Shown here piece after piece: positions 61,876-63,921 of a DNA stretch of 64,000 bases. Position 1 is the first letter of the stretch. The number at the start of each line of letters is the position of its first letter. Source of the DNA: an uncultured bacterium. GTDB lineage: Bacteria; Bacillota; Clostridia; Lachnospirales; Lachnospiraceae. Below the pieces are notes generated by a model that saw only the letters and a list, made by a program, of their open reading frames with translations, had not been told where the DNA came from and did no database searches. The DNA lies in the NCBI GenBank assembly GCA_947643595.1, contig CANRWP010000002.1:51036-115035 (forward strand). Reading direction: 5' to 3'. The position numbers and the translations under genes were made by a program.

Positions 61876-61913
61876 CAAAAATGAAATGTTTCACGTGAAA
61901 CATTTCATTTTTG
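61876..61913. promoter_or_regulatory. parS: parS site 1 within a 38-bp perfect palindrome (core 61887-61902)
   Basis: CAAAAATGAAATGTTTCACGTGAAACATTTCATTTTTG; core TGTTTCACGTGAAACA is an exact match to the bacterial parS consensus. Confidence 0.92.
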
Positions 61914-61932
61914 GATACTCTCACCACAATAT

Positions 61933-61952
61933 AATGTTTCACGTGAAACATT
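61933..61952. promoter_or_regulatory. parS: parS site 2 (core 61935-61950)
   Basis: AATGTTTCACGTGAAACATT, exact parS core. Confidence 0.92.
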
Positions 61953-62090
61953 TTAACCACAATATATTGAAATAAAATTTGTGAAACATTTATATTATGT
62001 AAAATGTTTTGTGAAACATTATATGGATAGATTATTAAAGTATAAAAAAAGATAAATGGATGGACACAATATATAGTAAAAAAATATGTG

Positions 62091-62119
62091 TTGACAAAGA
62101 ATAACTTATGGGGTATATT
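62091..62119 (+). promoter_or_regulatory. Promoter of the ABC-F gene
   Basis: TTGACA (62091-62096), 17-nt spacer, TATATT (62114-62119). Confidence 0.8.
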
Positions 62120-62152
62120 AAGAAACAGAAATAAAAGGAAAGAGGTGTGAGT

Positions 62153-62173
62153 GTGATTATTATTACCTGCTAA
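62153..62173 (+). CDS. Putative leader peptide (GTG start, MIIITC*)
   Basis: SD-like aaaggaaagagg ending at 62145, 7 nt before GTG ATT ATT ATT ACC TGC TAA; lies between promoter and terminator of the ABC-F gene. Confidence 0.4.
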   Translation: MIIITC

Positions 62174-62295
62174 ATTATTAATTTTAGAATGGCATGATGG
62201 AGTCAGTTTGTCATGCGGCAGGAATATTTTCACATTAGGCCTTTAAATAGGGATAGATCAATACTGAGAAAGTCTCTCGATTTTTCAGAACAATG

Positions 62296-62325
62296 AAGAT
62301 GCAGAAAATATTTCTGCATCTTTTT
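62296..62325 (+). terminator. Intrinsic terminator in the 5' leader of the ABC-F gene
   Basis: AAGATGCAGAAA-ata-TTTCTGCATCTT followed by TTT; about 30 nt upstream of the ATG at 62356. Confidence 0.82.
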
Positions 62326-62355
62326 ATCTTATGTGAAAGAAAGTGAGGAATAATA

Positions 62356-63921
62356 ATGTCATTGATCAGTGTAAACAATTTAACTTTTCATTATGAGGGA
62401 AGCTTTGATGAGATTTTTGAGGATGTATCTTTTCAGATAGATACTGACTGGAAGCTGGGATTTACAGCGAGAAATGGAAGAGGAAAGACAACATTTTTAA
62501 AATTGCTGATGGGAGAGTACGAATACAGAGGAAGTATCAGCTGCAATGAAAGTTTTGATTATTTTCCGTTTGAAATAAGAGACAGGGAGAGGTCTTTTCT
62601 TGAGATCATCGAAGAGCTATATCCGGAATATGAGTTGTGGAAAGTTTGTAAAGAGTTATCTCTGCTGCAGGCAGAGGAGGAAATCTTGTATCGTCCCTTT
62701 TATACATTGAGCAACGGAGAACAGACAAAGGCGATGCTGGCAGTTTTATTTTCCCAGGAGAGCAGATTTCTTCTGATAGATGAACCGACCAACCATCTGG
62801 ATGTGAGAGGAAGAAAAAGTATCAGAGAATATTTAAAACAAAAGAAGGGCTTTATTGTCGTCTCTCACGACAGAGATCTTTTGGATGAGTGTGTGGATCA
62901 TATTCTTGTCATCAATAAGACTGATATCGAAGTGTATAAAGGAAATTTCTCTACATGGTGGGAGGAAAAGAAACGAAGGGATAACTGGGAGCGGGAGGAA
63001 AATGAACGGCTGAAAAAGGATATTAAGAGATTAAAGGAATCAGCCCGTGTAAAGGAGGAGTGGGCGGATAATATCGAGTCCAGAAAGATCGGAAAAAAAG
63101 CCTATGAGGAGGTAAAGAGAAAAGGAATTTCCACAAAAGGACGAAGGGCTTATATCGGGGAAAAGACGAGAAGAATGGAGAAGCGCCGAAAAAATCTGGA
63201 AAATCGGGAGGAGAGAGCAATCGAGGAAAAGTCAAAGCTTCTCAAGAATCTGGAGACAGCGGAGGATTTAAAGCTTTTTCCGTTGAGGCATTACAAAGAT
63301 GTCTCTGTAAGTCTGTCCGATGTCTGCATCTACTATGGACAGGAGGATGGAAGCCAAAAAAATCTGGGCACAGTCAGCTTTGATATAAGGAACGGAGAAT
63401 GCGTGGTTCTGTGTGGAAAAAATGGCTGTGGGAAATCCAGTATCTTGAAGGCAGTCATACAGGCGGCGGAAGAAAAAGAGGGAATGGTTCCCGGGGAAAG
63501 CCTTTCGATGACAGAGCCGATCTGTTATACCGGAACGATCACTACGGCGGGAGGACTTAAAATTTCTTATGTACCGCAGGATACAAGTCATCTGCGGGGA
63601 AGTCTCATCGATTATGCTGAGCAATATCACCTGAATCTGAGTTCTTTTCTGATGCTTCTTCGAAAACTGGATCTGGAGAGGGAACAGTTTGAAAAGAATT
63701 TGGAGGAATACAGCGGCGGACAGAAGAAGAAGGTGTTGATTGCCAGAAGCCTGAGCGAGCAGGCGCATCTGTATATATGGGATGAATCCTTAAATTTTAT
63801 CGACGTGTTTTCCAGAATGCAGATAGAAGAGCTTCTTACAAAATATCGTCCTACCATGCTGCTTGTGGAGCATGACACGGCTTTCGTGGAAAAGGTGGGG
63901 AGCAAGATAATTGAAATGTAG
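62356..63921 (+). CDS. ABC-F family ATPase, Lsa-type (putative ribosome-protection/antibiotic-resistance protein)
   Basis: Two NBDs: NGRGKTTFLKLLMG, TLSNGEQTKAMLAVLF, FLLIDEPTNHLD; CGKNGCGKSSILKAV, YSGGQKKKVLIARSL, LYIWDESLNFIDVFSRMQIEELL (Lsa/Vga-like second Walker B); basic linker. Confidence 0.88.
   Translation: MSLISVNNLTFHYEGSFDEIFEDVSFQIDTDWKLGFTARNGRGKTTFLKLLMGEYEYRGSISCNESFDYFPFEIRDRERSFLEIIEELYPEYELWKVCKELSLLQAEEEILYRPFYTLSNGEQTKAMLAVLFSQESRFLLIDEPTNHLDVRGRKSIREYLKQKKGFIVVSHDRDLLDECVDHILVINKTDIEVYKGNFSTWWEEKKRRDNWEREENERLKKDIKRLKESARVKEEWADNIESRKIGKKAYEEVKRKGISTKGRRAYIGEKTRRMEKRRKNLENREERAIEEKSKLLKNLETAEDLKLFPLRHYKDVSVSLSDVCIYYGQEDGSQKNLGTVSFDIRNGECVVLCGKNGCGKSSILKAVIQAAEEKEGMVPGESLSMTEPICYTGTITTAGGLKISYVPQDTSHLRGSLIDYAEQYHLNLSSFLMLLRKLDLEREQFEKNLEEYSGGQKKKVLIARSLSEQAHLYIWDESLNFIDVFSRMQIEELLTKYRPTMLLVEHDTAFVEKVGSKIIEM

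Follow-up and report, generated by a model that had tools for sequence, protein, structure and literature searches.

The leaders of several ABC-F genes have been described, and three of them are close to the system analyzed here. In the vmlR leader of Bacillus subtilis, a short upstream open reading frame (uORF) encoding MIN lies within an anti-antiterminator hairpin, and formation of the intrinsic terminator immediately preceding the ABC-F gene is opposed by an antiterminator (PMC9226507). Drugs that act at the initiation stage stall the ribosome on this uORF. The cplR leader of Clostridioides difficile (uORF MRI; PMC10201436) also controls a drug-inducible ABC-F gene. It is about 210–230 nt long, has its uORF in a 5' hairpin, and ends in a 3' terminator; the published consensus of CplR uORFs is MR[I/M]. 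The lsa(A) gene of Enterococcus faecalis is preceded by a short predicted uORF encoding MAGN (PMC10201436). The class of mechanism proposed below is already known from the VmlR, CplR, and VgaL leaders.

The locus is located at the end of the window, which is the whole 64,000-nucleotide stretch of DNA that was analyzed and which ends with its contig in a Lachnospiraceae genome. All features described below are on the forward strand. The last gene of the window (62356–63921) encodes a 521-residue ABC-F protein with two ABC domains and a linker, for which Lsa is the best family match. Its top match in NCBIfam is ABCF_Lsa_all (NF000167), with 647 bits over the full length, and the next subfamily scores 194.5. 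The strict Lsa cut-off (750 bits) is not reached, and the general cut-off for ribosomal protection ABC-F proteins (380) is passed with a score of 412. In a search of the PDB, Lsa(A) (7nhk) ranked first with 396 bits, and the second chain had 152 bits. Its sequence identity is 51% with Lsa(B), 49% with Lsa(E), and 99% with the counterpart in the nearest named genome, Bacterium 1XD8-76. A preliminary description of this DNA had labeled the gene Lsa-type. The closest relatives agree with this label, but we call the protein Lsa-like because its score is under the NCBIfam Lsa cut-off. It presumably protects the ribosome, as a ribosomal protection ATPase of this kind would. Several genomes in the Paenibacillaceae search described below have two Lsa-like ABC-F copies; in G404, for example, their identities with the query are 100% and 82%.

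The leader of this gene resembles that of vmlR in the position of the uORF within an anti-antiterminator hairpin and in the competition between antiterminator and terminator. For vmlR the stalling is known, whereas for the window it is proposed from the sequence. The uORF of the window encodes MIIITC with a GTG start, and the core ACCTGC / GCAGGAATATTTTC / GAAAATATTTCTGC differs in sequence from that of vmlR. Moreover, VmlR belongs to another ABC-F subfamily (ARE2), and its translation-attenuation layer is unsupported in the window. The cplR leader is similar in length and in the placement of its uORF and terminator; drug inducibility of the window gene is predicted by sequence. However, the cplR terminator hairpin also hides the Shine-Dalgarno (SD) sequence of the gene, which is downstream of the terminator in the window, and CplR belongs to ARE1. 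Some Lachnospiraceae Lsa-like genes have cplR-like MR[I/K]-stop uORFs, which the window does not. These uORFs, together with MKL- or MKR-stop uORFs, form a second leader class (L023, L027, L044, L056, L069, L072, and L098). Lsa(A) shares its family (ARE3) with the window protein, but the uORF sequences are unrelated. The published survey of lsa(A) uORFs would miss the group of the window because it was limited to homologues with at least 80% identity to Lsa(A) (PMC10201436). Our literature search did not find the uORF class, the core sequences, or the spread of the window leader family described.

Elements of the leader

The leader begins with a sigma-A type promoter, TTGACA-17-TATATT (62091–62119; −35 element at 62091–62096, −10 element at 62114–62119), as the preliminary description had proposed. 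It matches 11 of 12 consensus positions and is the best promoter-like site within 60–64 kb, and sites passing a loose threshold of 9/12 are frequent by chance. The promoter and its distance to the uORF (31–35 nt) are kept in several distant relatives (L011, L112, L115, and L117). Transcription would start at approximately 62126. Two perfect parS-like sites, TGTTTCACGTGAAACA (61887–61902 and 61935–61950), lie between rnpA-yidC-jag-mnmE-mnmG-rsmG-like genes and the leader, immediately before the latter; zero are expected by chance. They are probably binding sites of a ParB/Noc-type chromosome-partition protein. Degenerate GTGAAACAT copies of this site are present at about 61980–62025 and in L010.

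The mini-ORF claimed earlier is present as GTG ATT ATT ATT ACC TGC TAA (62153–62173), preceded by the SD sequence AGAGGTG (62141–62147). We regard it as a putative ribosome sensor. It is invariant in the genus, with a stop codon that varies among TAA, TAG, and TGA, and it is a member of a family-wide set of uORFs ending in [S/T]C-stop. The SD sequence is kept in the genus and in relatives with an ATG start at the same position; in an alignment, the ATG of L014, L106, and L107 falls on the GTG at 62153. Two other starts were considered and set aside. An in-frame GTG at 62147 (VSVIIITC) is absent from L010 and overlaps the SD sequence. A GTG-TGA start-stop at 62151 is conserved in the genus, but its spacing from the SD sequence is short. 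The hexamer GTGTGA (62151–62156) thus contains overlapping GTG starts, of which the upstream one is GTG-stop, and it is kept throughout the genus. Ambiguous GUGUGA start-stop sites have been reported in Escherichia coli (PMC9841429).

An intrinsic terminator precedes the gene, in agreement with the earlier claim of a terminator about 30 nt before the ABC-F start. Its hairpin (62295–62323) has a stem of 12–13 bp and a stability of −15.3 kcal/mol and is followed by a U-tract (to 62328). At the sequence level, 32 nt separate the hairpin end from the ATG at 62356. The SD region of the ABC-F gene, GTGAGGA (62343–62349), was recognized from sequence and fold.

Two mutually exclusive pairings

Three segments appear to form the switch. 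Segment A (62151–62170) is the RNA of the uORF, segment B (62218–62233, GCAGGAATATTTTCAC) is the switch strand, and segment C (62304–62317, GAAAATATTTCTGC) lies inside the terminator, where it takes in some of the 5' arm, the loop, and the larger part of the 3' arm. In the minimum-energy fold, B pairs with A and forms an anti-antiterminator. Alternatively, 62218–62231 of B pairs with C through 14 contiguous base pairs, including one G-U pair, and forms an antiterminator. As read from the sequence, the order A-B-C is the classical arrangement of anti-antiterminator, antiterminator, and terminator. The B:C pairing is the central part of the switch and was absent from the preliminary description.

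The leader fold is more stable than expected (z = −3.8), and an equal stability was reached in 1 of 200 shuffles. The match between the terminator and B was equalled in 1 of 1000 dinucleotide shuffles (terminator vs spacer). Taken alone, the A:B pairing that the window allows without gaps does not exceed chance, and we therefore do not use it as stand-alone evidence; the evidence for A:B is the bulged fold and the relatives.

Two smaller structures had been listed as parts of the attenuator. The hairpin GCATGA/TCATGC is present (62192–62216), with a fold of −11.0 kcal/mol and a variable loop, and it is conserved in the genus; it is the tip of the anti-antiterminator and not a separate element. 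The stem CTGAGAAA / TTTTTCAG (62264–62271 / 62281–62288) exists in the sequence but is not conserved within the genus. It was rejected as the antiterminator because it is not kept in congeners and lies outside the B:C pairing, and it has no evident role.

Within the family, 174 of the 397 genomes carry a homologue of the ABC-F gene. In the genus (L001 and L010–L013), the spacers are too diverged to align, yet there is almost no variation in the SD-GTGATTATTATTACCTGC-stop region, in GCAGGAATATTTTCAC, or in the core of the terminator. We scored the pattern SD-start-(1–6 codons)-[S/T]C-(0–2 codons)-stop in distinct homologous leaders. It was found in 69 of 162 leaders vs 1–5 (about 3) in shuffled sets; the remaining leaders have different or no recognized uORFs. 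We recovered A/B/C triples from 90 leaders, with a low-scoring end that is not wholly convincing, and the same B segment was chosen by A and by C in 58 of 62 leaders.

The relatives also contain compensatory changes. Among 49 distinct B/C pairs, double changes that keep pairing occur at positions 3, 7, 8, 9, and 11 (17, 11, 11, 9, and 9 times, respectively), and these counts were reached by 0, 0, 0, 0, and 1 of 500 shuffles. In the true register 88% of the positions are paired, compared with 41–58% when the register is slid. The B:C covariation is supporting rather than independent evidence because B and C were picked partly by pairing. Covariation of A with B was observed at three positions (3, 7, and 9). 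No Rfam covariance model matched the window or 14 related loci at the gathering score, and sub-threshold matches were at the level of chance.

Modelled ribosome footprint and proposed mechanism

The leader was folded at equilibrium with and without a ribosome footprint, which was modelled by keeping positions −15 to +15 around the GTG at 62153 unpaired. For the free RNA up to the terminator end, the terminated state is favored by 7.8 kcal/mol (−57.3 vs −49.5 kcal/mol). With the footprint, the order is inverted and the antiterminated state has the lowest energy (−41.5 vs −39.2 kcal/mol), and the ensemble probability of the terminator decreases from 0.93 to 0.42. The folding into mutually exclusive structures that had been suggested as a check thus yields A:B against B:C. 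Extending the folded RNA beyond the terminator reverses the margin of 2.3 kcal/mol, and the terminated state returns despite the footprint. For two congeners, L011 and L012, no switch is seen at equilibrium. Because the margin is small and reversed in this manner, the switch must act during transcription.

The same calculation was applied to 56 leaders chosen solely by their uORF peptide pattern. The mean terminator probability decreased from 0.94 to 0.68 with the footprint, and the decrease was at least 0.3 in 18 leaders. No decrease of this size occurred in the controls with a shuffled spacer (mean 0.93) or with the footprint moved 40 nt downstream (0.94). These data bear on the simplest alternative, a plain terminator with a chance short ORF and low constitutive expression of the ABC-F gene by read-through. 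Terminators and short ORFs do arise often, and the promoter match by itself is within chance at the loose threshold. However, conservation of the uORF, B, and C across divergent leaders, the covariation, and the controlled footprint test make this alternative extremely improbable.

We propose that the region is a ribosome-sensing transcription attenuator, in which a ribosome held by a drug at or just after the uORF start turns on the Lsa-like ABC-F gene. Based on the sequence comparisons and the folding models, we assign this reading a probability of roughly 0.86. The attenuator layout suggested earlier is supported in silico by the exclusive antiterminator/terminator pair, conservation, covariation, and footprint folding. 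Without drug, ribosomes would initiate at the GTG at 62153, translate six codons, and depart. Segment A would then pair with B, the terminator would form, and transcription would stop near 62325. A peptidyl-transferase inhibitor, most likely a pleuromutilin, lincosamide, or streptogramin A, would trap the ribosome on the start codon or immediately beyond it. The footprint of the held ribosome, extending to about +15, would cover A and free B, which could pair with C inside the terminator and block it. The Lsa-like gene would then be transcribed and the ribosome protected. Termination in vivo, ribosome stalling, and the inducing drugs are predicted here from the sequence.

A drug-stalled ribosome might instead act chiefly by exposing the SD sequence of the ABC-F gene, as second, translational layers are known in VmlR and CplR (PMC9226507, PMC10201436). 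Most of this SD sequence is base-paired when the RNA folds freely (mean unpaired 0.26), as such a mechanism would need. However, its exposure barely moves with modelled stalling (0.32, and 0.43 with the antiterminator forced), the congeners have no consistent stalling effect on it, and a strong terminator precedes the gene. Dominant translation attenuation is therefore highly improbable, and a translational layer added to the transcription attenuator was also rejected because the modelled shifts are small and inconsistent.

Possible start-codon sensing and spread of the leader family

In nearly all leaders, 12–18 nt (mode 15) separate the start codon from the TGC of A, with ORFs of 1–8 codons alike. 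Two values of 21, in the window and a near-copy, are artefacts because the upstream in-frame GTG was taken; in L011–L013, likewise, the GTG-TGA at the position equivalent to 62151 was used as the start. The published toeprint edge of an initiating ribosome on the vmlR uORF is at +16 (PMC9226507). At other ABC-F uORFs, the ribosome is arrested on the start codon by lincosamides, streptogramin A, and pleuromutilins (PMC12421871). The near-constant spacing, whatever the length of the ORF, suggests that the initiating ribosome is the sensed state. In the simplest reading, the encoded peptide need not matter because a ribosome held at the start codon would cover A.

The codons of the uORF, three consecutive Ile codons followed by Thr and Cys, could also suggest attenuation by charged tRNA, in which slow decoding of ATT ATT ATT or of the Thr/Cys codons would stall the ribosome and free B with no drug. 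However, the switch is kept in relatives with other codons (MKTTSC, MRTASC, MINFSCK, MYNFSC, and MDFSC) or with none (AUG-stop), and the kept feature is the start-to-core spacing and not the codon content. The gene also encodes a ribosome protector and is neither biosynthetic nor a tRNA synthetase gene. We consider amino-acid attenuation quite improbable and retain the drug-held ribosome as the signal.

The leaders without sense codons after the start were found in Paenibacillaceae, where a homologue is present in 86 of 105 genomes searched. Among the 61 retrieved Paenibacillaceae leaders with the motif, 49 have AUG immediately followed by a stop codon (TAA in 33, TAG in 13, and TGA in 3; for example, L160, L163, L167, L190–L198, and L222). 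The others have short ORFs, such as MYISC, MYNFSC, and MDFSC. Codon 2 tends to be T-purine-purine in this group, so part of the AUG-stop excess could be a sequence constraint; one leader (L180) has TGG at this codon. The spacing between SD and AUG is 11–14 nt, which is above the usual. In all 15 modelled Paenibacillaceae leaders, which were picked for having A/B/C, a footprint on the AUG eliminated the terminator (probability 0.97 without and 0.006 with the footprint). It is an even call, from sequence and modelling, that the leader family senses a ribosome at the start codon with a dispensable peptide and that the Paenibacillaceae uORF has been reduced to AUG UAA/UAG/UGA, a minimal start-stop sensor. 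If so, this sensor would report inhibition of the first reaction catalyzed on fMet-tRNA, which here is the release of fMet driven by a release factor and not the formation of a peptide bond. Our literature search retrieved no description of an ABC-F leader with a start-stop uORF. The default minimum of uORF4u is nine nucleotides (PMC10219788), and AUG-stop uORFs would therefore escape a listing of this type.

The same A/B/C core precedes lsa(E), a mobile and clinically known resistance gene, on plasmid p3 of Enterococcus faecium Aus0085 (L185, CP006623.1, bases ~337–560). The uORF is MYNFSC-stop, B is GCAAGAAAGTTAAG, and the terminator contains ...TTTACTTTCTTGC. This leader differs from that of the window in its ATG start and in having about 150 nt more between terminator and gene, and the protein is 49% identical. 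Plasmid-borne homologues in Monoglobus (MRNFSC) and Paenibacillus urinalis (AUG-stop) also have this core in their leaders. The leaders of lsa(B) and of a homologue on a Priestia plasmid are different, as judged by eye.

The range of uORFs, from MIIITC to a bare AUG-stop, poses the question of whether the encoded peptide is read or whether the sensor responds just to a ribosome trapped on the start codon. The comparative evidence defines a leader family for Lsa-type ABC-F genes that extends from gut Lachnospiraceae through Paenibacillaceae to plasmid-borne lsa(E). With this family defined, sequence would allow the prediction of resistance to pleuromutilins, lincosamides, and streptogramin A that is drug-inducible and hidden in the phenotype.
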